From: Bryoerythrophyllum caledonicum
Taxonomy: Eukaryota > Streptophyta > Bryopsida > Pottiales > Pottiaceae
NCBI GenBank assembly: GCA_963971425.1
Contig: OZ020525.1
Location: forward strand, 12,344,187-12,408,186
Length of the DNA: 64,000 bases
Reading direction: 5' to 3'
Under the pieces are notes generated by a model. That model did no database searches. It saw only the letters and a list, made by a program, of their open reading frames with translations, and was not told where the DNA came from. Position numbers and translations under genes: made by a program. Below are positions 10,701 through 62,836 of this stretch, one piece after another (position 1 is the first letter of the stretch; every line of letters starts with the position of its first letter).

Positions 10701-10710
10701 AACTTCGACG

Positions 10711-38410: not shown

Positions 38411-39345
38411 TGTCGTACCTCAAATTTTAAAATTTTGTTAGTTAGTTAGTTAGGGATCTTAAATATGACTAGTTAGATAGATATAGGAGTTAGTCTTAGA
38501 CTAGTATAAACCTTTAAGGTAGATTAGAGTTAAGAAAGTTAGAAGGTATTTCAAAAACCTTAGAGTAGATAAAAAGTAGTCTAGGACCTAATCCTAGCTG
38601 GAGTGGAATATGGAGCCCGAGAGGGGAAAACTTGACGCTCAATAGTTGGAGCGGAGTGCAAGGAGCCTGGAGGGAAAGAACTCGGAGATAATAATTGAAA
38701 CCTGAAGGAAACTTCTTGTGGTAGGATAATCGGGTAGGAATTTCCCAGTTAGTAAAATTTTTGTTTAGAACGTATATATTTGCCAATGGGAGTAGATCCT
38801 TAGTGTTAATAGATCATATTAGTGAGTTATGATCCGATAGGGCAGTTGATAACGGATAGATACCAATCGGTGGATGTGGATCCTGATTTGGAACGTCATG
38901 CCAATAGGGAGTACAAGAATTGGAGATAGGCCGATTGGAAAATCAATTTTTCCATGCCTGGAGTGTTGGAGCTCCTCCCTCGTGATAGGAAGTTTTGTTG
39001 AGTTGGTGTTGTGGAGATTAGTTTGGTGTTGTGTTGCCGGTTGGAAAACTTGTTGAAACTTGTGATTACGGATTGGAGAAAAACCAATAATTAATAAAAT
39101 AAGTATATTTTGGAAGCTGCAAAGTTTGACCAATTGTATGTGTTGATTGTGTAACTTTGGTTCATTGGAACCTGTGTTGACAGTGTATGTGATTAGTTGG
39201 ATTTGGAGACTGTAAACAGAGTTATGTGTACTTTGAGTAAATTAATACCAAATGGTAAATTGATGTGATGCATGCCAATTGTTGCATGTCAGCCAATTAA
39301 TTATGTGGCTGATTGGAAAGTGAATTAATCTCCATGGGGAGTTGG
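38411..39345 (+). repeat. 5' LTR, first part
   Basis: Begins TGTCGTACCTCAAATTTT, a typical TG start (a start a few bases earlier is possible). It is AT-rich and rich in GATTGGA/TTGG segments, like 56683-57218. It ends at the target site GGAGTTGG where the hAT element begins. With the second part the LTR would be about 1.47 kb. The outer boundary is inferred, because no second LTR is in the window to compare. Confidence 0.55.
39338..39345. other. Left target-site duplication of hAT composite 2
   Basis: GGAGTTGG, identical to 56675-56682. An 8-bp duplication is the hallmark of hAT insertion. Confidence 0.92.
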
Positions 39346-39605
39346 CAGGGTTGTCAGGACGCTCGACGTCCCTGACGTGCGGACGTCCTCGGGCCTATCA
39401 AGACGTCCGGTGACATAACGAGTTTTGTCAGCTTACCCGGGGGTAAATAGCCGTCCGCAGCCCCGGCCGACCACCCATTCCGTCCGCTTGGGCCGACCGC
39501 ACGGCCGTCCGCTTTGGGCGACCGACGTTCGTCGTCCGCCGTTGCCAGGCCGTCCGCCAAGGCCGACCGATGGGCCGACCGCCGCGGCGGACGGCCTTCT
39601 CACGA
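39346..39605. repeat. GTCCG subterminal repeat block 4 (left end of composite 2)
   Basis: GACGTCC, CCGTCCGC and GGCCGACCG units crowd the first 260 bp, including several copies of GGCCGTCCGC and GGCCGACCG. Overlapping Arg/Pro-rich open frames on both strands are products of the repeat. Confidence 0.85.
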
Positions 39606-39669
39606 CAACTCCCCCGTCCCCTATTAGATTGACAATGAATCGTCTCCCAACCGTCAGAATCACCGTGAG

Positions 39670-39676
39670 TATAAAG
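39670..39676 (+). promoter_or_regulatory. TATA-like box for the hAT transposase of composite 2
   Basis: TATAAAG on the plus strand, 65 bp after GTCCG block 4 and 200 bp before the ATG at 39870. The spacing matches the 190 bp seen in composite 1. Confidence 0.55.
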
Positions 39677-39869
39677 AAAACAACACATGGAGCCTCACTT
39701 CACTTCTGAACTTTTGTTCCCAAGAGCTTTGAGCTGCATTATGTATCTATTGCTTGGTAATCATCGAGTTCGGAAGTCTTGAATATCAGAGTTTCTTTTG
39801 GAACTCCTGATATTTCTTCCACATACTACCTATCACGTTTGTTCATTTCTCGATACTACACCCATCAGA

Positions 39870-42705
39870 ATGGCCACCAAACCTTGGTCTCCTTGATATA
39901 TCGAAATCACTGAAGTACAAGGCAGGAAGACCGACTCCGTCCAATGCAATCTTTGTCACCGCATTTTTGCAAGAAGGCTAGAACGACAGCTAAGTCATCT
40001 CGGGTACAAAGAACTCCTTGGCAAGCGCAATAGCGGTGTTGACCTCTGCACCAAATTGACACCCCGCATAGAGACTTTGTTTAAAAATTGTCGTGGCCAC
40101 TACCCGAAACACAATGGAGAACTTTTCTCCGAACATTGCCCCAACCAACCATTGAAATCTGCACCTGCCTCAGGATATAGCACGCCCAAGTTCATCGGTG
40201 AAGATTCTTGTGTAGGGTCCACTCAAGCCCCCCCCCCCGTGATTTTACCATCAACCATCGTTGAACCGACCCCCACCTTTCACGACTTCACCGAACAAGG
40301 GGTGTAGGTGCCACGTTCCCCAGATTGCTGAGGCAATCCGTACTCGAAAAGGGCTTTCAAGAAGTGGAGCGGCGGGAGCAAGACAAAGTGTGGGCGAAGG
40401 TTTTCTACGAAGCACACGTGCCGTTTGCTATAGCACGGAATGCTGCATTCAAGGAAGCCGTGATGAAGACTGCCTCTTTCAAAAAACCATATGTCCCACC
40501 CTCTTACCATGACATTCGAACAAGGTTGTTGGGACTAGCGAAGGTTGATTTGGAAGCACAACTCAATAAAAGACTGTTCAAGAGTGTTCGAAAGTTTGAA
40601 GGAACTCTAGCCATAGATCGGTGGACATCTGTGACTAGTCGCCCTTTGTGCAATACAATGCTCGTGTCTCCCGCTGGAGAGCTCTTCTTGGGAGTTGTAG
40701 ATACTACAGGCAAAAAAAGGAACGTTGCGTACCTGGCCTCCATCATGTTCAAGTTCATTGAACAAGTTGGCCCCCACAACATTGTTCAGGTGTGTACTGA
40801 CAATGCTCCAGTCATGCTCAATGCCTCAACATTGGTCGTCGAAAAATATCCTCATATACATTCAAGGATGTGCCGCACATGCCATGGACTTATAGTTGGA
40901 GGACTGGGAGAAGGCTGCATGGGTAAAAGAAACTCTCGAGAAAGCCAAGTTCTTGGTTAAGTTTGTCAAGAATCGGCAAATGTCCCTCGCCGTGTTTCGT
41001 AAACACGAGGCCAAGTTCAGCCTATTGTTCCCCGGGCAAACAAGATTTGCATGTAATTTCATAATGATAGATCGCCTGCTGAAGGTCAATGAATCATTGG
41101 AGCAAACCGTCGTTGATCCTGAATGGCGAGCATACGCCTCCAAGAAGTCACTCTCGGCTAGAGATAAAGTAGTCATCTCTCAAGCCATCAAAAGAGAGGT
41201 TCTAGATTAGCGTTTCTGGGAGCGGTGCACGAACTTCCAAGAGATGGTAGCCCCTGTAGTGTATGCACTTTGGAAATTCGATGCCAAAGAACCTTGCATG
41301 CCCAAGGTTTTGCACATCCTTTGCGACCTCGAGAAGCATGTCCTAGCGTTGCGTAATGAACCATTCTGTCTCGATAGCGATTTAGCGTTCATTGCTGAGG
41401 ACGAGTTCTACGCACGGAAACGGATGATGACCACGGATTTACATTCCGCCGGAGCACTTCTCAATCCTTATTTACTCCATGACAAAGAGTTGGCCGATGA
41501 TCCGGATGTCATCACGGCATGCAAACGAGTACTACAAAAGCTATGTGATCCTAAGATTTATCCGGACGTGGTGAACAAGTTCCTCGCATTTCGAAACAAG
41601 GAGTACCATTCCATGACACGTTGGATCGTAAGGACCAAAAATGTTCTCCGTATGCTTGGTGGGATTTTGAAGGTGCTTGAAGAATACTCCTTGCACCAAT
41701 TGCAAAGAGAATTCTAGCACAGACAGTATCATCTTCTTCTTGCGAACGCAATTGGAGTAGCTACTCATTCGTCCATGACAAGAAATGGAATCGGTTATTA
41801 CCGGGAAGGGCTGATGACTTGGTCTTTGCGTATACGAACTCGAAGTTGCTTGAGGTGTGAGGAGAGGTGGTACACAGAGAACTTGGATTTAGAGAATCCA
41901 CAACCACGTGAGTCGGATGACCCGGACTACTCTGATGATTCAAGCACGGTGCCCTTGCCAATTACGATGCAGAGCATCTAGACGATGACATCGACAGCAA
42001 CCCTTCTCAACGTATGGATCATACTCACGACGCTCCAATCACCGAGTATGATTTTGTCGATGACGACGTTCTTGCAGAGAATGAAGATGACTTGTTGCCC
42101 ATAGCGTAGTACTTGAATGGAGACGGCATGGTCAATAGCAATAATATCCTTCGTCGTGGACCGACTCCGCTTCTAGAAGACACGAAAGACAAGGGAGGAG
42201 AAGATTTATCATCCTCACGTGCAATGGCACTACACGGGCAAAAAACGCAAGGGTCCTCAGTGAAGAGTGTTGAGAAAGGCGTCCTCGGTCTCGCACTTGT
42301 AGAGAACCGCGAGCAAACAACGAAAGAGCCACTCCTAGACGACACGATTGTTCTCGGGGAGAAAACTATGGAGGGCGGTACTTACGGCAGTACACGGTGT
42401 CCCATTCACGTTACGGAGAAGAAGACATCCTCCTCTAAAGATCAACCGTCCTTGCAAGGTCGCGCGTCGCGGTCTTTATTTGCAACTTCTCTTGCAACAG
42501 TCACTACAACCAATTTGAAATCCTCCCACGGTTTGGTGTCCCTTTCAAAACATGTGCGACTCCGAACGCCGCAACGCCAATCCGATGGCCTACCTAGTGA
42601 TGGCGATGTATCTCTGTCTAAGCTCTTCATACATCACCCCGAGGTTCAGGGAGGTTTAGGGTTACAACCTAGGCGGCCTTCAAACGATAGGAAGAAAACA
42701 TAAAT
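39870..42705 (+). pseudogene. hAT transposase, multiply disrupted
   Basis: The ATG at 39870 is followed by a BED-like finger (QCNLCHRIFARR, then HLGY). After a frameshift near 40305 come FYEAHVPFAIARNAAFKEAV and DRWTSVTSRPLCNTM, then VCTDNAPVMLN. The C-terminal dimerisation region with SSSSCERNWSSYSFVHDKKW is encoded around 41730-41800. Lesions: TGA at 39894, a frameshift near 40305, a frameshift near 40865, TAG near 40890, TAG at 41208 and a frameshift near 41670. An acidic tail ends near 42108, and a further open stretch to 42705 resembles a basic tail. It is clearly related to, but diverged from, the transposase at 29347. It is transcribed inward from the left terminus. Confidence 0.85.
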
Positions 42706-43430
42706 CTTCCATGCATCCATTTCTTCGCACGCGATCTAGTAATCCCATTGATGTCATTGGAACTTGTAAGAGATTCAAAACCATTAAAACATTGTCGATC
42801 AAATAGAGAATCAAACAAGAACCCGCCGCGAATAATGAAGACGATCCTCCGGGATCTAGTGGAGCTGAAATAATAGATGACAGCGATTAAAAACTTCCTA
42901 CCGACGTGAATGAGTAGGAAAATTTGGCCCATTTACATAGTATGTGTTCACCGCACTTATTTTGTTATGTATAGTGTAGTTCGAGTTTAGGGTACTTTAT
43001 AGTCGTTTTGCGTATGCATTAAAGCTTCTATTGTCTTAATTGATTCTTGGATTTATTCCGAATATCAATAAAAAAATTTCATATATGCACAAGGTTTTAC
43101 ATCCATCTCTTTTGCTATTCTATTGTCTTGTGTTTTGTGTATGGATTTAGTCATTCCATACAAAATGACTTAAACATGACATTCTTGTTGTATGCAAAAT
43201 GTAATTCGACTTTGCAAACTTCTATTCATTTCACTGCTTCGCATCCACCTAATGCACACAATATTTCTTACACCCACATACAATTAAAGAATTCAAAAGT
43301 TGACAAAATATATTACAAATTGTAAACCTTTATTTCAAAAAGTATGCTCCACCATGGCATGCTTCCGACTTCTTGCCACACCATTCTTTAAACAACAACT
43401 ACGCTAAGCTTTACATTCATCTACCATATT
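42706..43430. other. Noncoding spacer between convergent genes
   Basis: No gene recognised. AT-rich 3' flanks of the hAT pseudogene (+) and the RING gene (-), which converge here. Confidence 0.5.
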
Positions 43431-45602
43431 CTACTGCCTTGAAGAAGAAGGCTCGTCGGTATGATCCGTTCGAGTGCTACTACGAGTCCGCGGTCTCTGG
43501 CTTAACCTAGCAATCCTCCCCCCCTCTTCGTACTCTCGATTCACGGCTGCAATTTTCCTATGCATCCCCGACCACCAACTATCGTCGTTGTCATTGCCAT
43601 CCCTCTTCCGCTTCCCGCCAAGATCCACCTTTTTCGCCGCAAGGATTTCCATAGCCTTCTTTATTCGTTCCACCACATTGTTCACAGAAGCGTCATTCTG
43701 TGGGAATGACACCAAAAATTCCCCTTCGGATTTCTGTAGCACGTTCCGCCAATAGCCAATGATGTCCCCAATCCTCCGATCAAATGCTTGCACCGCATCC
43801 CAATAAGAACAGTCTACGTCTTTAAAAGAAATCATTTTCTGTTGAACTCCATAACTTTGCGGCCTCTTCCAACTTTGCAAGAACCAGGGCTCCACCAAAG
43901 TACGATTGTACTTCTTGTACTCATCTCTCAACTCAATGCGATTGTATACCTCATGCCATACACCATCTTCTCCCTTCTCAGCTCTCTTTGGAGGAAATCA
44001 AAAGAAACGCTTGTGCTTAGTGCTCCAATGCCCCCCAAAGTTGAGGCAAAACAACTCTTGTTGCTCGCCATCTTCAATCTCTCGCGCTCGTATTTCCACC
44101 TCATAGTCTTGTATCATCCAAAATAATCGATCAATTTCCATCCCATACTCCTCGTATAGTTGGTGAGAAGAAAACTCACTATTCCACATAAGTGGTTTTT
44201 CTCACTCACGATAGTTCAAGGATTTCTTTGGAAGTTGATCCAAGGGAGATTCCATCGGTTGAACTCGTGCCCCGGTGGCATACATCTCTTTTCCCCATCA
44301 CTTCGTAGAATCTTGAGCTAATTGGAGAGCGACACATAGGACACGCCGATTGTATCATAGAACCTGTGGAAATGCAAGTAATATGAAAGTTATGGCCACA
44401 TTGGCCCAACATATACGCTCCCTCTGGACCGAAATGATATTGGCACAAGCTGCATTTGTCATTGAGGAATGCCGGGACAGGGTCGCAAATATGGATTACT
44501 CTTCGCTCCGATTCTATAAAATGTGGTGAGAAGGTATTGTAGGGGCACCCATCCTTCCTCCACTTTTAAAGCCTAGTCAATACCATGGCTCTTTCCTTTC
44601 CGATGATAGTTTGTCCGATCCATCATCTCCGGTACATCACCCCAATAGTAACCTTCGTGGACTCATGTCCACTTTGTCCAACAAATTTCTTCAATCTCTC
44701 CAATCAAGTATCCACGAGTTCACATGATTCTTGTGATTCAGTGGCAAATTTCTTGAGATCATGTTGTGCTTTCGAGACCATGTCACCATGGTGTCTCTGT
44801 CTTGAAGGCGATGAATCCAACCCAACCAAGGCATTGTGTTCTCGTTCCATGGTGTGTCGTCCACCGATCTCAATGTCCTCCGTAGTGTCTCTAGTTCCGC
44901 TCGTGCCTCGTCCCTCTCCATATTTGCCACCTCTAACTTCTGTGATATCGATTCCATCTCCCCCTTACCTTCCACTATCGCCTTCCCTTTTCCAGGCGCT
45001 GTTGGCCGTACTTGGCTACTCCTAGCTGGTACTGCCAATTGAACAGAAGATGGCTCAGCCGGTCCGTTAGATTTGACCGGTGTGGCATCCTCCGCATCAT
45101 TCCCTCCAAACTTGGAAAGAGAAAGGTCGTCAGAAGTTCCAGCGCTGTCGTCAATGACTACCACATCCACCTCACAAACCCGCGCATTCATCTTCTCCGA
45201 CATCCTTGTAACGAGTCTCCTACTAGCCTCCAGCTGCCGCTTGTTATCTTCCAATTCCCATTTAAGGTGTCTAGTGAGGGTTTCATTTTTATAGGCCTCC
45301 TCCTCCATATCCATCACTTTCTGAGTTAGCGCAATCTTGTCTTTTAACATTGGCATTATAGAGGANNNNNNNNNNNNNNNNNNNNNNNNNNNNNNNNNNN
45401 NNNNNNNNNNNNNNNNNNNNNNNNNNNNNNNNNNNNNNNNNNNNNNNNNNNNNNNNNNNNNNNNNNNNNNNNNNNNNNNNNNNNNNNNNNNNNNNNNNNN
45501 NNNNNNNNNNNNNNNNNNNNNNNNNNNNNNNNNNNNNNNNNNNNNNNNNNNNNNNNNNNNNNNNNACCGTGCTTTGGATGGAAGATTTTTGGGTTGTAGC
45601 AA
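43431..45602 (-). pseudogene. Second RING-H2 protein gene, with gap and breaks
   Basis: The readable part, from the gap leftwards, encodes a coiled-coil segment (ISQKLEVANMERDEARAELE), then a RING-H2 finger near 44440-44310 (CSLC, GQCGHNFHITC, CPMC), then a Trp-rich region (VEPWFLQSWKRPQSYG, FDRRIGDIIGYWRNVLQ) and a basic, Ser-rich C terminus (GGKRKRDG; ends SSSRQ). The RING motif matches the finger of the gene at 23066, including GPEG and LGxCGH. The N terminus is hidden by the N gap at 45366. Several frames are needed, so introns or frameshifts interrupt it. E3 ligase function is inferred from the RING only. It is the extra gene that composite 1 lacks. Confidence 0.65.
45366..45565. other. 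Assembly gap (200 N)
   Basis: Exactly 200 unknown bases inside the coding part of the RING-H2 gene, hiding its N terminus. Confidence 0.99.
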
Positions 45603-46129
45603 TTTTTATGTATATCAACCGAAGAATCTCTCAACCATAGTGGGGTTTGAACTATAGATTCTGATCAACATTTTTTACCCATGATACATAAATACATACA
45701 AATAGTGCCAACCATGGTGGTTCAGTGAAGACGATTAAAATGTGGTAGGACAGTGTGGGCACCCTTGAATATTTAGTTGATTTGGGTTGTAGGATCCAAC
45801 AAATGATTTGTCATGCCAATTCCGGCAGTGCACAATCTGCATCCTTTAGGTTTTTGTATAAATTCATGGCATTTAATAAATTGTTTAAGTAATACATTTC
45901 TGGAATTTGGTGTAATGTTATACTATGTCATGCTTACACAATTACTAATATGACCACATTGGATATTATGTTTTGTTTATGTTGGAGATTAGAATGGAAA
46001 TACAAAGAGAAGAAAATGTTAGACGGAAGATGTAGAAGAGAAGTGTAGGAAATTAGAGAGAAGTAGAAAGAAAATAATACAAAAGGATGAGAGGGACAAC
46101 CAAATAAAAATTAAACTGTCAAGTAAACT
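45603..46129. other. Noncoding stretch
   Basis: No gene recognised. Purine-rich AGAGAGAA-type sequence lies at 45980-46160. Confidence 0.4.
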
Positions 46130-47290
46130 AGAAGGAGAAGAGAACTAGAGAGAGAGAGGGACAATTATAAATGTACACCTTATTAAATTTGAAACATCTT
46201 GTTTTCTCTTGTACAAGATGTGTTATAAACCTTCTCATTGATTGTTTGGATAAACATTCTAAAAGATGCCGGGTGCACAAAAAAGTAAAATGTGAATTGG
46301 CCATGTTTGAACCTCCACTCCTTGCACAAATTTGTTTGAATATGCTACTCCCGTTTCTTACCTCTATAAATTGGTGTATATAGAATTAACATCAAGCTTC
46401 ACAGAACAATATAAAATTATGAACTTTTGGATTGGATCAAGGTTTAGGGAAAGAAAAGTCAAAGTCTAGAATACCAGTCAGCGATGGAAGAAAATGAACA
46501 TTTTTTTACTTTACACACTATAATCTATCAATCCATGCGGTGGATTGAAACCATAAGAGCATGGTGTGTTCATATAGAAGTCTACTTTAGGATCTTACGA
46601 TTTAAATTCTAAAGATCACTTGAAAAATGTGATTGCTATGCCTCTTTTTCGATGTAACGGTTTTGGACTAATTTTTTAGCAAAATTGGCCATGTTCCTTT
46701 AGAGTTTCAAACAAGGGTAAAATATTTAGACCTTGCATATTACTTAAATATGATACGAAGTGTTGTCAAAGTCTTAGTGTCTCATGAATATGGATCAACG
46801 CAGGGAAGAGAATAAGTTGTTGTTTGGATTGTAAACCCCATGATTTAACTATCCATGCGGTCGATAGGAACCAAATATATGAACACGCCATACTATATTA
46901 GTTGCAAACTATCGCATGAATCGATAGATTATAGTGTCTATGTAATATTTGAAGGACAGAAGTTCCAAATCTTTTACCATTGTCTTAAAGGTTAGGCATC
47001 ATGTTCATATCCAATACACCAATTTCTAGAGGTAAAAGAGGGGTGTAGCATCTTCGAGAAAATTCAACAACAAGTGGAGGTTCAAGAATGGCCAATTCAC
47101 ATTACAATCACTTGTGAACTAAATATCTTTTAGAATGCTTATCCATATTCCAATTGGTCAATTAAAGAGTGTACATCACATCTTTTAAGAGAACAAAAGA
47201 AGAAGTGAAAAAACAAAAAAAAAATTGTAAGTTTTATTGAGGAAAAGAAGAAGTTTTGTTGCACATTGCACAAAAAATGGTGAAATCATT
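46130..47290. repeat. Dispersed repeat R in inverted pair (copies b and c)
   Basis: 46130-46560 resembles 53640-53960 in direct orientation (GGCCATGTTTGAACCTCCACT, TTTACACACTATAATCTATC, ATGCGGT). 46840-47290 resembles the same sequence inverted (CCAATTTCTAGAGGTA, GGTGTAGCAT, AGTGGAGGTTCAAG, GGCCAATTCACA). Together they form a roughly 1.15-kb long inverted repeat with a unique loop, as in a fold-back element or MULE-type non-autonomous element. No reading frame. Confidence 0.55.
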
Positions 47291-48039
47291 TTACTTCGAA
47301 TAAAATGCGAATTTACAATGAAGACCATCATTTTTTTGAGAAACGTTTAAAGAAAAAATTATTTCAGATGAAAATGAAAAACCTCAATGAGTGAATGTCA
47401 ATAGAGAATTCTATAAAAGGATTTTAGATGCCCGTGCTCCCCTTTGTTGACTATGGGTGGTACTAAATTTGAAACCACAAATCTACAAAAAAAATTAATT
47501 AATACATTCAAATAGCTCTTTCTAGGGACAAAGTAACATAAAAAATTTCGAAAGTTGTTTCTTCATATTCACAATCTAGAAACTTGCCCAAAATTAAAAA
47601 TTCAACGCGAAGAAGATTTACTCATGTAGAGGCCAAAAATCCTCCCATACAAAGTTATGCCTATGCTGTGGACAATGTACCCTTGGCCCTTGGAACATTG
47701 TGCCCGTGGGCCATTCCAATTTCCTCCTGGTGAGTCAAACATAAAAAAAGGAAACGAGCATCTCTTACATGTTATGTAAGATATTTTAAGTGGAACCATT
47801 GTTAAGAAACTATATAAAACTGTGCTTCCACGTTCACAATGGAATATCCTCGTGAATGCGCACAAAATCTTCCCGACATTATTCCGACCATTAATGCATG
47901 TGACTGGATCTCCAGATCTGGAGTGCACGTGCAAAGTGAACCGTCCCAGAAAAGGAAGTGGAGGACCAGGGAAGGGAGTTTAGAGGGGAGAGAGTTGGGA
48001 GGGGAGGGAGCGTAAGGAAGTGGAGGAGCCAAGAGGGAA
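47291..48039. other. Noncoding stretch
   Basis: No gene recognised. The last part (47940-48040) is purine-rich (GGAAGTGGAGG, GGGAGGGGAGGGAGCG) and leads into GTCCG block 5. Confidence 0.45.
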
Positions 48040-48375
48040 GGCCGACCGATCGGGGTCGGCCGCGGACGGACTCTGCAGACGGATCCGATCAGACAGCCGT
48101 GGCCGTCCGATCGGACAGCTGAGACCACTCTGACAGCCGTGGCCGTCCGATCGGACAGCTGAGACCAATCTGACAGCCGTGGCCGTACGATACAATGGCC
48201 GTGGCTGCGGACGGCCACGGCCGTCCGATTGGTCGGCCACGACCCATTGGACGGTCGCGACCGTCCGTGGCGGCATCGTGGCCGTCCGATCGGGCGATAC
48301 GCCCGAGGCCATCCGCCATCGGACGACTCGAACGATTCGCAAACCGTCCGCCGAGGCCGTCCGCCACTTGTGGTC
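48040..48375. repeat. GTCCG repeat block 5 (internal promoter block of composite 2)
   Basis: Many GGCCGTCCGATCGGACAG and CCGTCCG units. The segment GACAGCCGTGGCCGTCCGAT with its neighbour CGGACAGCTGAGACCA is repeated about every 40 bp at 48090-48190. Long Arg-rich open frames on both strands are products of the repeat. Position and structure match block 2 of composite 1. Confidence 0.85.
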
Positions 48376-48377
48376 GG

Positions 48378-48386
48378 CATAAAAGG
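48378..48386 (+). promoter_or_regulatory. TATA-like box for the accessory gene
   Basis: CATAAAAGG immediately follows block 5. It lies about 375 bp before the ATG at 48758, close to the 390 bp of the RING gene in composite 1. An AATTAG just before the ATG may be the acceptor of a 5'-UTR intron. Confidence 0.5.
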
Positions 48387-48757
48387 CTGACGGCCGACCT
48401 TCCTCCCATACTCTAGTGGGCGAGCTGGTCGCTTTGGCATATTCTGCCGAATCGCTTGCGCCCCCTCGAGTGGCTCATTATTTCATAATTCATTTAACCC
48501 GTAAACGACCAGAGTCTCCTTCGAGGGGATTCCTTGATTTTTGGGCAGGTTCCTTAAATTTGAAAACAAATCAATTTTCTCTGAAATTTTTATTCTAGAT
48601 TGCCTTTGATAAGAGCTTCGTGGACATATTTTTATTTTATTTTTTGGATTTGTGGTTTGAAAGTTAGTATCACTTATAGTTTTTGAGGGAATTTGTCATG
48701 GAACTTTAGGGGTTAATTCCCATTCATTCATTTAATTGTTTGTTCTAATTAGGAAAG

Positions 48758-50121
48758 ATGCCAAGGTCCAACCGGCCTGTTGTTCCAAAGGGGAAAGCCC
48801 CCGAGATGGATTGGGATGCAACGGACGATCCAGATGTTGTTGCGGAGTACGGATGGCAGGATGAGGAAGAGAGGTTGTGGACTTGCACCATGTGCAAGAG
48901 GTACGTGAAGATGAAGCACCTCATGAAGTTGTGGCCCAGGGCACAAGTGAGGATATCCGGGCCGCGGCGCGAAGGTCTAGCGAGCAATTGTTGAGTGACC
49001 ATTTCCGCCATCGATATCATGAGGTCACTGTTGCGGTGGGTGTGCGCAACTCGAGGCCGGAGATCATGTTGTATTCGAACATGGCGATGGTTTGGGCGGA
49101 AATCGTCTTACACAAGGATGTGGACTGGCGCACCGTGGCGGGCCGCAATGTCAGCCTGATGGATCGAACTGCCCATTTTATACCAACCACTTGGAATCAA
49201 CCGAGTGATTGTTGGCCACGTTGGTCAAACCGAAGATCCGGGGACGATTTCGATGCCCACCAACAACAACGGACACCTCCAGAAGAGTACGGGGGACATA
49301 ACTACAACGACTACAACCGTGGCAATGATATGGGTTCCGCGCCTGTAACATTTGGTGGGGGGAGTGGCAGCCATTACTACGAAGGCGGCCAATGTGGTAT
49401 AGGGACCAACACCCTTCAAAGCAAGATTCCAACGCATACAAGGGGTACGTATGAGTTTGGTCGTAATTCCGCGCCTGTATCATTTGGTAGGGGGAGTGGC
49501 AGTCATTACTATGAAGGCGGCCAATGTGGTACAAGGACCAACACTCTTCAGAGCTATACGCCAACGCATTGAAGGGATACGTACGAGTCTGGTCGTAATT
49601 CCCCCGGAAAAGAGAAAGAACACTACACCCCAAACTCTGCACCTGTCTATTACGACGGATATGGCGGTTCTTACCATGGATATGGCCGTTCTTTGGATGG
49701 CGGCCAATGTGGTACAGGGACCAACACCCCTCAGAGCTATACATGAACGCCTCCAAGGGATACGTACGAGTCTGGTCGTAATTCCCCCGGAAAAGAGGAA
49801 GAACACGACACTCCAAAACCCTGGACACGTCTATTACGACGTATATGGCCATCCTTATGATGGATACGGCCGGAGATAGATGGAAGAGACAACACACCTC
49901 CATCAACGTTTCCACCTCGTCAGAACGAAGATGCCAAGTTTGAAAGACAAATGCATGAAGCCACAATACAAAGCCAGAACGAGTACATCCGCAGGCTCGA
50001 AGATGAATCTCGCTACATGAACAGGCAATACAATAACTTCTATGATGTTTATTCAAGCGGGCCGTACTCAAGTGGCGTTGGGCCAAGTCAAAGACGTGAT
50101 ACTGACTCAGATTCCGATTAA
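48758..50121 (+). pseudogene. Accessory protein gene related to the composite-1 RING protein
   Basis: Starts MPRSNRPVVPKGKAPEMDWD. A frameshift near 48870 leads into a frame that runs to the TAA at 50119 with TGA codons at 49570 and 49744. The segment MVWAEIVLHKDVDWRTV matches MVYAECVLHKRVDWSTL of the gene at 25210, and both start regions contain a GW...W spacing, so the N-terminal domain is shared. No RING is visible. Instead the middle is built of Gly/Ser/Tyr-rich repeats (SGSHYYEGGQCG) encoded by 132-bp tandem DNA repeats from 49339. The end is a short charged helix (FERQMHEATIQSQNEYIRRL) and an acidic DTDSDSD terminus. Its position behind an internal GTCCG block parallels the RING gene of composite 1. 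Function unknown. Confidence 0.65.
49339..49735 (+). repeat. 132-bp tandem repeats in the accessory gene
   Basis: Two full copies (49339-49470, 49471-49602) are highly similar (GCGCCTGTAWCATTTGGTRG start; GTCGTAATTCC end). Diverged third and fourth units contain GGCGGCCAATGTGGTACAGG and GAGTCTGGTCGTAATTCCCC. 132 is a multiple of three, so the reading frame is kept. Confidence 0.8.
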
Positions 50122-51399
50122 TCATACATGGTCTTTGTGTAATGTAATCCATGTGGATAATGTCTTCATGCGAGAACAATGTTGACTATTTTGTAAATTT
50201 AGAAGGTCATTCTTTAAGATCTTCAAATTGATGTTTATTAAATATTTCTACGCTGCGGCCATGTCAATGTGGATGATGAATGTACAATGCATGCTACGTG
50301 TTTCCAAATGAATTTTATTGATAATTTTTTAGTATAAGTGGATGTGTGGAATGAGAAATTTTTATACATTCCAACTTTTCATTCACCTCATAAAAGTTAA
50401 AGAGTATTTCATATCATTACATGTTCAACAAATTTCTTTTTACAACCTCTACCCCTAAAGTTCCTTGAGTATTTCTCACCCAGAAGTTAAAGCAAGAAGA
50501 GAAACGCCGGTCCGCAAAGGGGCCGGCGTGAATAAAGAATTTGTTCGTTCCATCACTAAGACCATGCCCACCAGACACCGTGTCGGGGAGGGCTTGGTTT
50601 CTTTTCAATTTTGCGTTGGTGTAGTACAATGGACATGGCCTGTTGAATGGCAACGGTCTTAATAATATTGAAAGTGTGTGAAATTGTTTCGATGGAGATT
50701 TTAAAGGTATCTGAAAAGGATATTTATAGATAGGATAAAGGTGGTGGCACGAGCGTTGGCAGTGATTACAATAAGCGGGTCCATTTTCTATCCGAGGGCA
50801 ACGATGTCATTAATAAGGGGTTGTTGGGTTGGTATTCATTTATTTTGTTTTCAATTGTTTCCGGGGAGAATCTATCATTACAATATGTGAATTTGATGAA
50901 TTGAATGGTATACTCTTGGTTAATGTGGTCGGGTGCAGGGTCATTGTATGGCAGGCCCCGAATGCAAAGTATGTTGGCTTTGAGTCTAGCGTTACAAAGA
51001 CAGCGCTAAGTTGCGCATGTACATGGGACTCAGGAGTAGCCAAGGGGGGACCGTATTTCCTTGTGGGTTGTAACTTGTTATTAAAGGTGCCGGCATTCAT
51101 GAGGATAAATCATCGTGATTTGTTATGGGAGGTAAATAGTTTTCAAATTTCCCATACTGCTTTGTTATGTCTTGTGACAATTAAGGAGTGTATGTGATGG
51201 TTTTGGCATTTTCAGTAGAACATGGAGTGATTTGTCGGGGTCTGAGAAAGTGCATATGGGACATGTTACATATGGGAATTTTTCTATTCCAAATAAGAGT
51301 TGTTTTCGGGCGTTTCCCACATATCGACTATTACGAAATTTGGTGACGCATGTTATTTGTGAGTTCGGGATGATGGGATTTTTCCAAGAATTTGTAGAG
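50122..51399. other. Noncoding stretch
   Basis: No gene I can support. Open frames at 50417-50653 (-) and 50829-51197 (+) have no recognisable motif. Confidence 0.4.
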
Positions 51400-51925
51400 A
51401 GTTCATAGTCTATTTTGTTGTTGCCAACCCATTACTCTATATTAGGGAAGTTTTCTTTGATTGTGTCAAGGTTGTTATAGAGGTCTTGTTTCTTGAGATA
51501 TTTGTTCAAGAATAAAACCGGAACCTTAATGGGGGTATCCTCTTTAGGAGGCCAATCTTCTTTTTGGAAGTAGTATGGGGTAGCATCTGGATGTTCGTAC
51601 GAGTCTTTGGCATTTTCATGCGTTTTTTTGCGGACCTCTTTTCCAAGTTTATTTGCTTGTTCGTTTCCATCGATATTTACTTGAGCAGAACTTTGTGAAG
51701 GGTTGTTATATGTGTTCAGTTTTCTAACATGTGGACCAACGACATTAAAATATTTTGGTTGAGATGGCTATTGTAGAGGATAGGGTTTGTTATTTGGATG
51801 TTTAGTAGATAAAGTGCATTGATACAGTCAATGAATATGTGTGCGGGTTTGTTGTTGTATTGTGTTGTGATGATTTGTCATGTTTTGTGTATGGCCATAA
51901 GTTCTGCTCTAAGGATATTTTAGTA
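51400..51925 (-). pseudogene. RNase H-like remnant, probably from a LINE
   Basis: Reading leftwards on the minus strand, one meets LRAELMAIHKT, IDCINALYLL and, after a shift of frame, DGNEQANKLGKEVRKK. This order follows the RNase H domain found at the C terminus of many plant LINE proteins: RAEL-x-A, D-S-x2-AL, then H-x-G-x2-GNE-x-AD-x-LAK. Stops and shifts interrupt it. No reverse transcriptase segment was found next to it. Confidence 0.45.
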
Positions 51926-52299
51926 TGTGGAAATTACTCTATAGAGTACACGAAATAGTATACCAAATACATTATACAATATCAATGAATACAACAATCT
52001 CTTCCTATAAGCATTTTTGCTATTCATATTTGAATGCCTATACATTTTAATGTATGCATGTTTGTATTAATGATTGCATATACGTCATTGCTTAAAATTG
52101 TTATGGTTCTAGATGTCCGAGTAAATATGTCGTAGCAATCTACCTACGGAGTTTGGCATTGAACTTCCTTAAAATGCTTTATAAACACTCACAAGAATGT
52201 GGTTTATGGAAAACCTTCTACACAATTTATTTTTTCTACTAAATCAAAACCCTACTTAGAGAGCCGATATCCATGATTAATATAATCTGGCCAAATTAA

Positions 52300-52910
52300 A
52301 ATATCATCCACTGCGGATGTAAATAGTCAGAGGATGGAAAAGCAGTCCGTGGTTGAAAAAACAGTCTCTGGACGAAAAACAATCTCCAGAAGAAAAATCG
52401 TCTGCGAATGACTATTGCTAAGTGTTAAGAATCATCACGAACACTGTTAAGAAACACTTAATGTTTGTAACCCGCTCCTTCTCTAGTCTTCCAATTTTTT
52501 TAAAGAAATTTTGTAATGAGTCTTTTTCTTAATATTAAACAATATAGAAAATTCATTAAAGTGGTTGTTATAATGCGTTGCAAAACAAGCGCAAACCACT
52601 ACCAAACTTCTATAGATGCAAACTAGCGGTTGGCGCTTGCTTTGCAACATATTAGTCCAACCATTGTAATGTAGTTTAATATTATAATTAGTTTTTCAAA
52701 ATTTCATCCGCAATCTAATTTTCATCCGTTGTGAATGTTTTCATCCGCTGCAAACATATAAACCGCAGTATGATTTTCATCCCCATTCTGATTTTTCATC
52801 CACAATTTTTCTTTCATCCACAGCCTGTTTTTAATTCGTTGCGTTGTTTTTCATCCGATGCGAGATTTTTCTTCCGCCGCATAGAATTTCATCCACAGTG
52901 GATGAAACTG
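52300..52910. repeat. Degenerate CATCCGC/GATGAAA repeats around a hairpin MITE
   Basis: Short related motifs recur: TTTTCATCCGC, TTCATCCGTTGTGAATG, TTTCATCCACAGCC at 52695-52910, and the inverse type (GATGGAAAAGCAGTCCG) at 52320-52400. CATCCACTGCGGATG at about 52306 and CATCCACAGTGGATG at about 52892 are near-palindromes at the two edges. Possibly a degenerate element with subterminal repeats. No coding content. Confidence 0.4.
52563..52662. mobile_element. Hairpin MITE
   Basis: The left arm GGTTGTTATAATGCGTTGCA..AACAAGCGCAAACC and the right arm (GGTTGGCGCTTGCTTTGCAA, then CATATTAGTCCAACC) are imperfect inverse complements of about 40 bp around a short loop. The same arm sequence occurs at 21130-21180. 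The structure fits a tiny inverted-repeat element or the fused ends of one. Confidence 0.6.
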
Positions 52911-53429
52911 TTTTTTTGGCAGAATTAACTTAACAGCGAGTTAATAACTTCCAAAATATTCATTTTTTTGGAATTCTGACTTCGGATTTGGGCTTTTTAG
53001 GTGCATTTTCATCTAGTAGGTAAACAAAAAAATTAGTACAAAAGTTTTGAAAATTTGACATTTTGGAGTGTATTTAAAAATAACATTTTAGGGACTAAAC
53101 TTTGGATGTAGATTATGGCTAGAGAATATGTTCATCACATTCGTTCTCATGCATGTTTTTTGTGTTAGTGTTGGTTGTGTTTTCAAATTTGTTATATATG
53201 GCGATATTCATTTACAAGACATGTAAGGTGTCTCATTTGAAATCTCATTTGAAACAATAATATGATGATGGACACGGAAAGAATACAATTGGATGGAAGG
53301 GGTCGTCGCCAAAGCGTGCATGAACCCTAAACATGCAAAGTTTGAATCAAACTTTTATCTTTTCTATGCACATGATTCAGGTGTAAATATTTAGAAGAAT
53401 GTACATGACAATGTCATGGAAAACCTCAT
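52911..53429. other. Noncoding stretch
   Basis: No gene recognised. Confidence 0.4.
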
Positions 53430-54620
53430 GAGAAACGATGTTTTTCACCGTTCCCTTGAAAAAACAAGTCTTCTCTTTATTGAAATTTTTTAAAATAGCA
53501 TACCAACCCAAGTCAAACATTTTCACACATTGTCACTCATTGTCGGGCGAGGTACCAAAAGATCTTATAAATTTTCACATAAAACCTACATATCTTTGTA
53601 TTTGTTACATTTTATTTTCTCTACATTAATATGTGGTGTAAACCTTCTTAATGACCATTCGGATTAGTAATCTTAAACACATTAAGTTCACAAGAAAAAA
53701 GAGTTTGAATTGGCAAAGTTTGAACCTCCACTACTTCCATAGTTGTTTTGAATACGCTACACTTGTCCTCTACCTCAAAAAATTGTTGTCTAAGGAACTA
53801 ACATCATGCTTAAGGTAGTGGATTTAGACCTTGTGTAGTTCAAAATTTTGACACCATGTAAAGTCAAAGTCTGTCGATCCACTAAACGCAGTGAAGACCC
53901 TAAACCATTTGCTTCACTTTACACACTATAATCTTTCAGTCTGTGCGGTCAAAGTTTTTGAAATATTGTAAACATATTTTTTCATAAGTCTTAATTGAGA
54001 TCCAACGATCAGAACTAGAAATGAAACTTTTGGTTTCTTTCTATGGTCATTGCACTTGAATCCAACAACTTTGAAGTGTTTTCGGTGCAAAATTGTCACG
54101 ATAACTTTGGGGATATAGGAGACATGTTGTATGAGTAGGGAGTCGGGCCTGAGGAGGCGTTTCAAATGGGGGTAATTTCTATAAATGCTAAATTATATTC
54201 AAGAAACATAAAATGGTTGAGGTTATGTATGATTTAGTGCCATGGGCACTATGATCTATCCCAAAAATTTGAACCCAAACTCGTAAAATTTGATATACGT
54301 CTTCTCTACATAAAACCTAGAGATCATCATATTTTACACATTTTTCTTTTTCAACAACATGTAGTGAACACTGAAAACCTTCATAAACCTAGGTTTGGAT
54401 TATCATTTGAAATCTAATTTAGTTTACAAAAAAACAAAACGTGGAATGGCAATTTTTAAACTCCAGTATTTGCACACTTGATTTGAATATGCTACAGTTC
54501 TTTTCTACCTCTAAAAATTGGTGAGTAGGGAAATATCATCATAAGGTTGAATTTGGATATTTTGAGGTAATTTTTTAAAAAAATCTGAAATACAAGAATT
54601 TTGAAATAGAACACATTGAT
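53430..54620 (+). repeat. Dispersed repeat R, copies d and e
   Basis: 53430-54000 is the inverse of 17260-17810 with high similarity (CATACCAACCCAAGTCAAAC, TCATTGTCGGGCGAGGTACC, GTCTGTCGATCCACTAAACG). About 54260-54620 is a second, more diverged copy in the same orientation (CTACCTCTAAAAATTGGTG, AATGGCAATTTTTAAACTCC). Both composite elements carry this repeat in the arm distal to the transposase. Confidence 0.65.
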
Positions 54621-54846
54621 AAGTTAAAAAATCGGAACTATGCCACAACCTAAACCATATAAAATTCAAAAAATGTCGGTCTTTGCACGGCTATATGAAA
54701 CAAGGTTTTTTTACTTCTTGTGCCCAAATTTTAAAGGCATGCAGTACATATTAATCTAAGACTATTGCTATAGTCACTTTAAAATGTGCATGCTATCTAG
54801 TATAGTCTAATAATGCCGAAAGGAATAAAGTAAAACCTATGTATTA

Positions 54847-56353
54847 CTAATACGTTGACCGATAATGCTCCTGAGGCGTGGGCCAGTTGTATGTGTCGCT
54901 GAAGTGTGTAATGATATGAAACAACCCTCCAGCGCTTTCTCGGTTTTCGTTGCAGACTCTCTCCATGTACATATGAAATGTATCCGCAAATTCTTGATTT
55001 GAGAATACTACGGAACTCCAAGATTCCCGTTGCAGATTCTCGTAGTCTATGGACATTGTCCGCGCGTTGATTCGTTGCGCTATTCGGGCCGTAGCAAACT
55101 CCTCCGAAGCCATCGATAACTTCGGAATCATTTGCACATCCGCATCTGGTTTGTGCAAGTACGCAACCCGCGGATCCACTCACCATCGCTTTTACAGAGT
55201 CTCGGCCATGCCTTCACGCTTTGTGAACGTGTAAAGAGACTGCATTGGTTCGTTAACCTTCGTGGTCATGCCCCAATCGCATACTCCAATATGTACTCGC
55301 GATTCATCTGGAGGGAAGTGGAGGAGGATATTGTCCGAAGACAAGTCATTGTGGAGATTGTTGCTCTTGTGGACCTCGTTCATGATGCACAACAACGTCC
55401 ACGCAAGCTCGGTCCGTTTTTTGCGAAAATGAACCAACTGTTGAACTCGAATAATCTCATCATCGGGGAATCTCCCATAGTTCAAATGTGTGATGACATC
55501 GTCACCAAACTCGATATCCCGGTTCAACATCTCTCGAATTTCCGCCATTCCACCAATATGCATAGCCTTCGTACTTGTCCGGATGAATGGCTACGAAACG
55601 GATGACACCCGGATGTGGAATCCTCACCGCCATCGACTCGTTCTGATGCTACACTTTTGCCAAATCCGGCCGTGTCTCCGATTGGTTGGACAATTTGGCG
55701 GCAAATTCCCAGAATGGTTCAATGCCCGGAGCGCCCTCAATGCGGACTTTGCGAATGGTGGCGTATCCACCTCTCCTGTTCGCATTGTCCATTCATATAA
55801 CCGCGGCTCTTGGCAGAACGCCAATGAGATGGGCTTTACGCAGCAGGTCTTCTTGGTGCCCCTCTATCAAATTCCACCATCCCACGGAGCCACGCCGGTT
55901 TTGATTCTTGGCGAATGGCTTCATCTGGGCCACGAACAAATCCGCCTTCAAAAGCACGTCGTTGAAAACTTCATCCGGTGCGCGATTGAACCTCCCAAAC
56001 TTGGTCGACAAGTTCTTGGCATTCCAGAGTGAATCGTGCACTCTGGCATCCAAGAACTTCAAAAACCCGCGCTTCTGGGTCTCCGTATTCCACATCGGGG
56101 CTTGAAGCGCGTCCATCATGTGCTGTCGCATGTCCGTCTGGAACTTCTAGGGGCCTTCATCTCTATATGTGACGTACTTGCTCTCCAATGATCGAATAGA
56201 ATTTTCCTCATAGAATCTGACGGTCAGTTTTATGAGGAAATTCTTGCAAGTCTCAGTTGGAACATCGTGGATTGGATGAAGCTTTACTCCGAAGTCTGCA
56301 ACCTTCTGCTTCTTCTTGTCCTTCGGCATCTTCTTAAACCCGCCGCCGTTCAA
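54847..56353 (-). pseudogene. Protein-kinase-like gene of hAT composite 2
   Basis: The ATG at 56353 is followed by a Lys-rich start (KKMPKDKKKQKVADFGVKL) and a roughly 170-residue N-terminal region. Then come kinase features in order: a GGYATIRKV loop, a candidate ATP lysine in WEFAAKL, the catalytic loop HNDLSSDNILL (HRDxxxxN with HND; Asp and Asn kept) and CDWGM in place of DFG (Asp kept). The C-terminal lobe ends near 54847. Breaks: TAG at 56147, TGA at 55793, TAG near 55665, a frameshift near 55540, and TAA/TGA near 55192-55180. The ancestral protein was probably an active Ser/Thr-type kinase; this copy is dead. It is transcribed inward from the right terminus through its own GTCCG/TATA unit. 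Confidence 0.75.
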
Positions 56354-56619
56354 AGTTTTTAAAAAAAAAATTTAGAACAAGTTTTAAAAAAAACTTTAAG
56401 AAAAAAACTAGTTTGGAACAAGTTCTTTAAAAAACTTTTAGGAAAAACTATTTCGAATAAGTTTTAAAAAAAACTTTTAAAAAATCGCAAAACCTCCCCC
56501 CCAATGTGAATCACTTTTTCCCTCCCAAAGACGAAGAGCCAATGGATGGAAAAATGCGAGCCAAAGCCACTCCGCATCCACTCAAAAATATATTTTGAGA
56601 GGGGAAAGAAAAGTGAGAG

Positions 56620-56674
56620 AAGAGGGCGGCGGACGGCCTTTTATAGGGTGGCGGACGTCGGATTGGTAACCCTG
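56620..56674. repeat. GTCCG subterminal block 6 (right end of composite 2)
   Basis: GGCGGCGGACGGCC and GGCGGACGTCGG, the inverse of CCGTCCGC and CGACGTCC at the left end, followed by GGTAACCCTG. Shorter than the other blocks. Confidence 0.75.
56637..56645 (-). promoter_or_regulatory. TATA box for the kinase-like gene
   Basis: The minus strand reads TATAAAAGG, between two GGACG motifs and about 285 bp before the ATG at 56353. Confidence 0.65.
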
Positions 56675-57220
56675 GGAGTTGGTCTGATTGGATTTAATTG
56701 AAGTGGAGAAAATAGAAAGTTGGAGGAATCCTACGACGCTCTGATTGAAACCAAATTGGAGAAGTGTGTGATTTGGAGTTAATGAAGATTGGAAATGTGA
56801 AGTGATGGAATAAACTGTTGGTATGAATTGTACCAATTGTGAGAACAATTGACTTGGAAATATTGGAATTCCACTACAAATGTGTGCGTGGGTGATAATT
56901 AGAAATTATGCGATTATGAATTTCATATGTGGACGATAATTTGATTATTCAAAAGAATTGAAGAAAGAATTGAACTAAGCGGTTATGACTTAGCAAGACT
57001 ATTTTTATATTGTATGAATTAAGAATATTCAACCGGTGATATTACATTGCAAGTACGATTAATGTTATGACAATGGGAGTGTGGCCTACATTTATATGTC
57101 CCATTTATTTAAGTATTCAATCGTGACAACTTTATCAAATCTTATAATCTACCTCCCCAGCGAACGAACTCAACCCTATTGTGTTAAATCACAACTTGGG
57201 TAAAAATACTACTTTACATT
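56675..57220 (+). repeat. Right target-site duplication and 5' LTR, second part
   Basis: GGAGTTGG at 56675-56682 repeats the base sequence at 39338. After it the AT-rich LTR continues (TCTGATTGGATTTAATTG) to about 57218, where TTACA-TT precedes the primer-binding site. Confidence 0.75.
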
Positions 57221-57238
57221 TGGCGCCGCTGCCGGGGA
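57221..57238 (+). other. Primer-binding site of the Gypsy element
   Basis: TGGCGCCGCTGCCGGGGA directly follows the LTR. It fits the complement of the 3' end of a plant tRNA-Asp with one mismatch, the primer used by several plant Ty3/Gypsy lineages (from memory). Confidence 0.8.
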
Positions 57239-57536: not shown

Positions 57537-59956
57537 ATGTCGGAGAGTAGGCGCCCACCCAATATTAATGGAATTAATATTTCTACACCAAGAGCTATAA
57601 AGGCAGAGCGTAGGAGTAAAATCCGATTGGACATTGAAACTAGACAACGAGAACTTGATCGCCAATTAGAAAACAGATCTAGTTTGGGGAGGGACACGAT
57701 CTCCAACCCAACTGGACAAGATCATGATTTGAGTTCTGAGTAGGTTTCACGAATCCCTGGTTGGAATCCCACTGGAGTAACATTAAACTTGAAAGATCAA
57801 TTTCAATCTAGAAGATCACCTATATTGGTATCAGAACCAAGTAGGGAAGAACCGAAAGGAATACAACCACAATGGCGGGGGCTAATGTACTGCCGGTGGT
57901 CATGACACCAGGTCAGGCAACCGATCGGCCATACTCAACAATACCTTTTCCAGTGTTTTATGGTCAACCGGGTGTTGATCCCGATAGGCGTATTAAAGAA
58001 TTTTTAACTTCATGTAATTCTAATAACGCGAGACATGAATCCCATTGGTTAGCCATATTTTCTGGAACCTTACAAGGAAGTGCCAGAGATTGGTTTAACA
58101 GACAACCCAATGGAACCTTTGCTAATTGGGCAGGGTTAAGAGATACATTTTTGGAAATTTTTTGACCAATTGTGTTTAATGAGAGGTTAATGGACCAATT
58201 ACATGATTTGACAATGAATCAAGGAGAAATGATTGACTCTTACTATGGGAGATTTAGTGACATCATCATGAGGATACCTCAAGGAGAGATGGTGTTAGAT
58301 GCAGCGAAATTAAGGATTTTTGTTAAAGGGTCAAATCCTTCCAAATTAAGGACAAGTGTAAAAGAAGGACAACCAATTAATTTAGCCGCAGCTTATGCTA
58401 GAGCTAAGTTTATGGAGGAAACTATTTATGAAGACCTATTGGGCGCGGCAGTCCATTCACTTATACAATATATTTTACCACCTGGAACTGCCGATGGGGT
58501 AAGTACAACCAATGCTTATAACTCCAAAATGGGATATGTACCACCACGTAGATCTTATGGGCCTCTTTCCCATTATGTATCAAATCCAATTCCAACAGTT
58601 ATGCCCAATAACCAATTGACTATAGCTGCCCCAGTTCAAACCAATGCTACAGTGGGTAATTCTCCAATAGTATACCCAACCCCATTAAAAACCATGGAGT
58701 CTACTCTTTTGACCTTAACAAACAAGTTTGATGAGTTGGTGGTCCAAGTGGCGGGAGCCAAAGCCAAAAGGGACCAACTTGTAGATGAGAAAGCCAATGT
58801 GTGGTGCACCAATTGTAAGGGCCAAGGGCATATGTTGCCAGATTGCCCTTCACCATTAAATCAATCACTAGAATGTCGATTTTGCGGCGGTCATCATGAC
58901 ATTGCCAATTGTAGTAAGTTAAGAAATAATTTGCAAAATGAGATAAGAAATGGAAGTAGAAATCGTCAAGTGTATAAAGTAGATGACACTAATGATCAAA
59001 TGAGATATAATGCCAATATTGAAACCAAAAATTGGGATCCTAACGGTAATAATAATAATGGAAATAATCGGAGGATTTGGTATAATAATAGAAATAACAA
59101 TGGGAATCAAAATCCCAATCCAAACTTTGTTAATAATAATAATTTTAACAATGGAGGATATAGAAGGAATCCCAATAGGTATATTCCTAATCAGAACCAG
59201 AGATGGTCGGCTATGCCATTTGGAAATCCCAACCAAAATGGACCAACCTATGGCAGTCAAGAACCAAGTTGGGAAAATAATCCTAATGTTCAATGTTATA
59301 ACTGCAAACAATGGGGTCACTTCTCTAGAAATTGTCCAAATGCCCGAGCTAGTGTACGTTATATTCCCCAATGTGGAAATTGTAAACAAGCCGGACATAC
59401 GGCTCCAGAGTGCAACGCTCCTAAAAGAAATGGCCCACGGGATAATGATGGGATGGTTAACAATAAGGATACCAGCCTTCGATTGATATTAGTGGAAGAA
59501 TTTCCGAATAATAACAATACCAACAACAATATGAATCAAAGCCGTACAATAAATTATGTGGCAACTTGTACTGGTAATTCTTCAATTATATCAGAGAAAG
59601 TAGAACTATTGGATAAAGATTTTAACCATGGAGTGAATAATGTGGAAAGAGTAATTACCCGAGCAAGGGTAAACAAGCAGATACCTAAAGAGACTCAACC
59701 TTTAGTCTTGGCAGATAATTACAATTCCATATTGGCAAATGTAAAAAAGGACAACCAACCAATGGGAAATCATCCGGTCATGCCCGACAATATTGAGGCA
59801 GTAATTGCACCTTTGATTGAAAAAGAACCAGCAATAAGTAAAAGCCCATTGAATTTATCTGACAATGAAGTTCCACTTAAATATGTTGTACCTATTGACA
59901 CCACGGTACCTCGAGGTATGAAATCTTTAAATCCAATTGGAAATCAAGTGTTTTAG
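57537..59956 (+). pseudogene. Gypsy gag with four zinc knuckles
   Basis: The ATG at 57537 starts a charged N-terminal segment that is broken by TAG at 57741 and a frameshift near 57870. The capsid part follows (FSGTLQGSARDWFNRQP, typical retrotransposon gag) and is cut by TGA at 58163. Then one frame of 594 codons runs on. It holds the zinc knuckles CTNCKGQGHMLPDC, CRFCGGHHDIANC, CYNCKQWGHFSRNC and CGNCKQAGHTAPEC, separated by a long Asn-rich stretch (about 59040-59160). Gag packages RNA and forms the particle. The frame continues into the protease region, so gag and pol were probably one polyprotein. Confidence 0.85.
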
Positions 59957-60745: not shown

Positions 60746-60813
60746 AATTAAGTATGTATCCAAAGTGGTACATTGGTGAGATACAATAGGAATCTCCAAA
60801 TGTCACTTCCGAT

Positions 60814-62801: not shown

Positions 62802-62836
62802 GACGGTGTGTATATAAGAATGAAATACCATTAATA

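Follow-up and report, generated by a model that had tools for sequence, protein, structure and literature searches.

A large, probably multigene hAT-type transposon family with kinase, RING and Gly/Tyr-rich genes in the moss Bryoerythrophyllum caledonicum

The hAT elements are usually regarded as a single transposase gene placed between two ends. A 64,000-nucleotide stretch of the genome of the moss Bryoerythrophyllum caledonicum (GenBank assembly GCA_963971425.1, contig OZ020525.1, forward strand; C14:12344187-12408186 in the searches below and hereafter referred to as the window) contains a 17,329-bp insertion at 39346-56674, with the termini CAGGGTT and AACCCTG and a perfect 8-bp duplication of its target site, in which the remains of a hAT transposase gene are accompanied by genes for a RING protein, a Gly/Tyr-rich protein and a protein kinase. 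This insertion, the window copy, is very probably a decayed member of a large, multigene family of cut-and-paste hAT transposons, the extra genes of which are most likely regulators encoded by the element itself. An earlier note on this DNA had proposed that a 17.3-kb hAT-type element, above the usual few kb, was inserted here as one unit, and the duplication, the ends and the uninterrupted insertion sites described below bear this out.

Boundaries and insertion site of the window copy

The ends and the perfect duplication, which the earlier note had also reported, can be read directly. The left target-site duplication, GGAGTTGG (39338-39345), is followed by the left terminal inverted repeat CAGGGTT (39346-39352, plus strand), the point at which left-end matches recurrently begin, and the right terminus, closing with GGATTGGTAACCCTG (56657-56674, plus strand) so that AACCCTG ends at 56674, is followed by the right duplication, GGAGTTGG (56675-56682). 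The junctions thus read GGAGTTGG and CAGGGTTGTC on the left, and GGTAACCCTG and GGAGTTGG on the right. When the 83 YAGGG sites of the 64-kb window were combined with its 56 CCCTR sites in pairs 0.1-40 kb apart, the window copy was the sole pair with a perfect 8-bp duplication, and one further pair had seven of the eight bases. The expectation by chance is at most about 0.07 (4,648 x 4^-8) when the limit on spacing is disregarded and two further matching end bases are left out.

A subterminal array of GTCCG/GGCCGACCG repeats occupies 39380-39600 (plus strand; Tandem Repeats Finder (TRF) 39465-39523; repeat families D4, D9 and D14) inside the left end. The claim that such repeats lie inside both ends holds for the left end of the window copy but only in small part for the right, where about 0.4 kb just inside the terminus is missing and the array is mostly deleted; an additional 355-523 bp precede the terminus in 20 of the 29 other right-end loci. 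The element shows 8-bp duplications, CAGGG-type inverted ends and subterminal repeats at both ends (the right array in other copies), which are the characters of hAT transposons. Its size of 17.3 kb is nominal because the 200 Ns read at 45366-45565 stand for an unsized assembly gap.

An uninterrupted copy of the repeat into which the element was inserted lies 25 kb from the interrupted one. The joined flanks match C14:12426150-12426676 over the junction, with 493 of 500 aligned bases identical and a single GGAGTTGG, and two further stretches, on C9 and C12, also span the junction uninterrupted with one GGAGTTGG-like 8-mer. The two parts of the interrupted repeat (38717-39345 and 56683-57221, both plus strand), when compared with the partner copy over 1,168 bases, show 19 mismatches and two gaps; they are followed by a series of gag/reverse-transcriptase/integrase-like open reading frames (ORFs) at 57845-63697 (plus strand). 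The repeat reads as the long terminal repeat (LTR) of a retrotransposon, which to judge by its ORFs would be of the Ty3 type; if the repeat and its partner are an LTR pair, the insertion of the window copy is younger than that retrotransposon. The kinase gene of the window copy has 20 private changes in 1,480 bases (1.35%) against about 0.8% per line from the LTR pair, which hints weakly that the decay of this copy had begun before its move. A 93-bp tandem duplication (99%) was also observed within the retrotransposon-like ORFs, at 60539-60731.

Ends and full copies across the genome

The whole genome (437,360,962 bases in 894 contigs) was searched for the ends of the element. The left 26-mer and the right 24-mer occur 339 and 487 times, respectively, with up to two mismatches, and the reversed-pattern controls gave no occurrence. 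A left-end query, comprising the first 463 bases including the duplication, yielded 541 candidates, and 31 of the 40 scored matches begin at bases 8-10 of this query, in which the element itself starts at base 9. With the last 483 bases as a right-end query, 453 candidates were obtained, 40 of which were scored. Among 30 right-end loci, the window copy included, 21 finish in GGATTGGTAACCCTG or an allowed one-base variant; in eight of the other nine, as judged by eye, the terminus differs at one or two bases, and one (L038) is without it.

Association of the two ends was examined among the matches listed, which include 97 left ends and, up to C7 only, 100 right ends that match exactly. On C1, C2, C3, C4 and C6, where 47 exact left and 96 exact right ends were compared, 23 left ends have a correctly ordered exact right end within 40 kb, with 0.43 expected; two of these left ends use one common right end. 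The three wrong configurations of the ends gave five pairs altogether. Four of the 23 pairs are 0.4-0.7 kb apart, fifteen 5.0-20.0 kb and four 24-39 kb. The transposase gene is likewise associated with the ends: of the 40 transposase matches scored, out of 386 candidates, 18 have a listed left end 744-874 bp upstream, and the right side was found, among the matches listed, within 40 kb of 10 of the 20 scored matches on C1-C4 and C6.

Nine copies, the window copy included, were read at length, and eight of them have both ends. A perfect 8-bp duplication flanks the window copy and the copies C2 (8,221 bp), C3 (12,005 bp) and C1c (10,546 bp), and imperfect duplications were found in the C12 copy (17,312 bp, seven of eight bases) and C1b (10,549 bp, six of eight). 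The C12 copy, also of 17.3 kb, has the layout of the window copy, is 92-95% identical to it in long matches and lies at an unrelated site. The check on other copies proposed in the earlier note thus gave the same end bases, both ends together in one element and uninterrupted sites with one copy of the duplication.

Gene content and selection on the kinase

Wherever the genes are present, their order and strand are transposase (+), RING (-), Gly/Tyr-rich (+) and kinase (-). Constancy of the gene set, also raised as a check, thus applies to order and strand; not every copy shows all the genes. All four were seen in the window copy and C3; the RING match is only weak in the C12 copy (31% identity to a metagenome relative). 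The Gly/Tyr-rich gene was not seen in C4, RING in C1, the Gly/Tyr-rich and kinase genes in C2, and the transposase and RING genes in C1b and C1c.

The four genes of the window copy are all broken by frameshifts and stops, as had been claimed. The transposase gene (39897-42914, +) has seven frameshifts and six stops relative to the open 937-codon frame of C2. An N gap interrupts the RING-H2/coiled-coil gene (43431-45602, -), which has seven frameshifts and four stops in the part counted, and the Gly/Tyr-rich gene (about 48749-50118, +) has four frameshifts and one stop. One frameshift and five stops were found in the kinase gene (54850-56329, -), for which C1, C1c and the locus L029 have an open frame of 494 codons. 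The counts for the transposase, RING and Gly/Tyr-rich genes, and those given below for shared changes in RING and in the first 900 transposase bases, excluded matches below 80% identity and rows with at least 60% missing. Open Gly/Tyr-rich frames are present in C1 and C1c, and C3 has an open RING stretch of 513 codons.

Pfam matches confirm the hAT transposase, RING-H2 and kinase genes of the earlier list; the RING gene and what had been taken for a separate accessory gene are parts of one gene. The window-copy transposase matches DUF659 (E 6.8e-25), and that of C2 matches DUF659 (E 9.6e-35) and Dimer_Tnp_hAT (E 2.2e-8). The open frame of C2 is without an N-terminal stretch present in other copies, and no Pfam BED match was obtained with transposase queries from the window copy and C2 that were without this stretch, nor in one further Pfam scan of a transposase query.

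The RING protein of the window copy matches zf-RING_2 (E 1.1e-8) and has the RING zinc-binding motif; among 13 related metagenome proteins, 10 of which have 724-885 amino acids (aa), the Cys and His residues are invariant across 11. It may function as an E3 ubiquitin ligase. Its predicted structure had a mean pLDDT of 51.6 and was not used. The RING protein and the Gly/Tyr-rich protein, the latter with 52 metagenome relatives, have related N-terminal domains (hhalign probability 98.4%).

The kinase fragment of the window copy matches Pkinase with an E-value of 6.1e-5, under Pfam's cut-off. Thirty-one metagenome proteins are related to the kinase, many of about 525 aa and one assigned by its label to a bacterial metagenome-assembled genome. 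Of 18 aligned relatives, 35-72% identical to the first, 17 retain the same N-terminal region and kinase domain, and the catalytic HxD, Asn and D(W)G are invariant or nearly so. The structure modelled for this accessory gene matches kinase domains in Foldseek (best E 1.2e-7), which points to a eukaryotic protein kinase fold and, putatively, to kinase function. VRK2 is the best sequence match of kinase type in PDB (E 0.0041) and no close relative was found there; two arabinofuranosidase matches that ranked above the VRK kinases were taken as chance. A search of viral contigs for relatives of the kinase gave 27 stretches that matched the pattern, none of which was confirmed.

A search with the C1c kinase returned 488 candidates, and of the 40 scored, 36 are exactly 1,482 bases long and all are 98-100% identical. 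Thirty-five of these matches are on chromosomes; for 14 of them a correctly oriented exact left end lies no more than 40 kb away, in 12 cases 8.0-11.4 kb from the kinase start. A full-length kinase match is present at 27 of the 30 right-end loci, one of them intact (L029), the search query itself having included the kinase start.

Selection was examined in 28 of 33 kinase rows, those with at least 60 missing bases being excluded, and CpG transitions were tallied separately. Outside CpG, private changes are close to neutral (293 nonsynonymous and 114 synonymous, ratio 0.98), whereas shared ones indicate constraint (94 and 86, ratio 0.42; Fisher p 5e-6 against private); CpG changes differ little (ratios 0.93 private and 0.88 shared). 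In MAFFT alignments, with sites within six columns of a gap excluded, shared changes are 5:21 (nonsynonymous to synonymous) in the kinase (seven copies) and 33:13 in the transposase (six copies), a contrast with Fisher p 2e-5, and 13:6 in the Gly/Tyr-rich gene (five copies). RING gave 13:3 (four copies) and the first 900 transposase bases 24:10 (11 copies). Among the four genes, the selection result is firm only for the kinase. The shared stops in the kinase are CGA, CGG, CAG and TGG codons altered by C-to-T or G-to-A, a pattern such as deamination of methylated cytosine would give; some shared kinase changes are therefore probably repeated deamination and not inheritance. Recent capture of the extra genes is unlikely, because each has diverged metagenome relatives and the shared kinase changes are constrained.

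Other pieces of DNA are nested within the window copy. These include a foldback repeat resembling a miniature inverted-repeat transposable element (46187-47342; related stretches at 17261-17836 and 53459-54542), a segment at 47450-48680 with inverted ends of about 49 bp and an internal GTCCG array at 48029-48364 (repeats I6, I4 and D3; largely common to the C12 copy), and the remnant of a long interspersed nuclear element (LINE) at 50489-51919 (-), which is 71-78% identical to a LINE beside the C11 copy and lies inside a stretch common to the C12 copy. The LINE and foldback pieces are passengers in the window copy, and only for such debris is the term 'composite', as applied in the earlier note, appropriate.

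Related units were also observed in the window and in the C11 stretch. A second, diverged hAT unit at 23069-29356 (-) of the window has an open 837-aa transposase frame with DUF659 and Dimer_Tnp_hAT, GTCCG-type arrays (25611-25895 and 29575-29681) and a RING gene with about 60% identity to a metagenome protein. At 16795-17259 a further CAGGGTT precedes GTCCG repeats and a 200-N gap, and may mark the end of one more related element. The C11 stretch (reverse of L043+L044) contains at 9060-12950, upstream of its right part, another unit, in which RING and kinase genes occur; this kinase is 67% identical to a metagenome protein and has two in-frame stops. Eight tandem copies of a 46-bp unit occur at 11424-11793 of the window; the unit may resemble a conserved stretch of 18S ribosomal RNA.

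Alternative explanations, known systems and significance

Several observations weigh against a multigene family. No exact right end was found among the matches listed for 24 of the 47 exact left ends; copies C1 (19.8 kb) and C4 (10.9 kb) have both ends and no duplication, and the C11 stretch holds the right part of the element only. Element sizes are uncertain because 200-N gaps are present in seven of the nine copies (the window copy, C12, C3, C1, C2, C1b and C1c). In a hand-picked sample of 20 right ends, taken at about every fifth of the exact-match list and including five with Ns, a kinase in the right orientation lies within 2.6 kb at eight (one only 58-72% identical), 11 have none within that distance, one of these with a diverged transposase in its place, and one has only a neighbour's kinase. 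Constraint on shared changes was not seen in the transposase, RING or Gly/Tyr-rich genes (six, four and five copies), and the metagenome relatives of the RING, kinase and Gly/Tyr-rich proteins are known as proteins alone.

The earlier note regarded the RING and kinase genes as host-like regulatory cargo; on such a view a small, ordinary hAT element would have captured host genes passively. Proteins of both types are typical host regulators and some end-bearing copies are without a visible kinase; however, such capture is improbable in view of the constant gene order and strand, the diverged relatives elsewhere, the shared architecture and catalytic residues of the kinase relatives, the absence of a close relative in PDB and the constraint on shared kinase changes, and the diverged hAT unit in the same window has a similar RING gene beside it. 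Two separate insertions, one contributing each end, might by chance have come to lie together, as the ends without duplication in C1 and C4 suggest; for the window copy the uninterrupted sites refute this, the perfect duplication and the similarly laid out C12 copy at an unrelated site also oppose it, and its probability is negligible. Equally negligible is a fungal-style Starship; such large eukaryotic transposons with cargo have been well documented, but a hAT-type transposase, terminal inverted repeats and 8-bp duplications speak against one here. The Pfam matches of the ORFs tested from the window copy and C2, a set short of a whole-element scan, include no tyrosine recombinase.

It is also conceivable, although rather unlikely, that selection maintains the kinase-bearing body in copies devoid of a transposase, which is supplied by others, the kinase being half-domesticated or cis-acting. 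The exact length and high identity of the best kinase matches, the presence of the Gly/Tyr-rich and kinase genes without a transposase or RING match in C1b and C1c, and the contrast between kinase and transposase in shared changes agree with this; but in C1b and C1c a 200-N gap lies just inside the left end, at the expected place of the transposase and RING genes, the 40 kinase matches were judged by length and identity only, hundreds of copies are unlike domestication, and the transposase counts are small. As a tentative extension of the multigene reading, a DNA transposon lineage might have made the kinase, RING and Gly/Tyr-rich proteins part of its machinery, diverged relatives being present in further organisms, with young, spreading copies of this genome keeping a full-length kinase even without a transposase and the kinase, in place of the transposase, being the gene under selection there.

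In the multigene family proposed here, the transposase would bind the CAGGGTT termini and the GTCCG subterminal arrays and move the whole unit, and many copies, probably including the window copy in its last move, would have used a transposase made elsewhere in the genome. Late movement in trans, as suggested in the earlier note, is plausible though not proven: C1c, although it contains an N gap, combines a perfect duplication with the absence of a transposase match, and the four end pairs 0.4-0.7 kb apart and the lack of transposase constraint in six copies also fit. The kinase, RING and Gly/Tyr-rich proteins would most likely regulate the transposase, host repair or cell-cycle factors, or host silencing.

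Plant hAT elements such as Ac/Ds (PMC3260210) and Gulliver are alike in 8-bp duplications, short CAGGG-type ends, subterminal repeats, a DUF659/hATC transposase and short derivatives. The longest consensus in one survey of plant hATs is reported to be Gulliver with 7,144 bp (PMC6027215), whereas the copies with good duplications here are nominally 8.2-17.3 kb and have up to three further genes. In a whole-word search of that survey 'kinase' and 'RING' occur zero times, as do 'hAT', 'kinase' and 'RING finger' in a term search of a review (PMC6431247), and a kinase- or RING-bearing hAT element is not named among the open-access titles and abstract openings listed. ToxhAT of fungal wheat pathogens, a DNA transposon likewise named as a hAT, is about 14 kb long and has a gene in addition to its transposase (PMC11857905, PMC6737239); the extra gene known from it is for virulence and has passed from one species to another, whereas here a set of kinase, RING and Gly/Tyr-rich genes recurs in many copies of one genome. 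Starships, classified by their tyrosine recombinase (PMC12134995), are similarly large with genes beyond the mobility enzyme, but unlike the present element with its hAT transposase, inverted ends and 8-bp duplications. The abstract openings on Kat1 and Hermes relate Kat1 activity to terminal and subterminal repeats and describe left-end contacts of Hermes via several BED domains (PMC4763223, PMC10368747), which may serve as a model for the GTCCG arrays; unlike the element described here, they name no kinase or RING partner genes.

If true, a recurring family of this kind, with four genes and purifying selection on its kinase, would represent a cut-and-paste transposon with its own signalling enzymes. 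Phosphorylation or ubiquitin tagging as a licence for transposition, as a means of evading silencing or as a timing of transposition within the cell cycle would then become testable, and the counts of kinase and RING genes in such genomes may include transposon genes.

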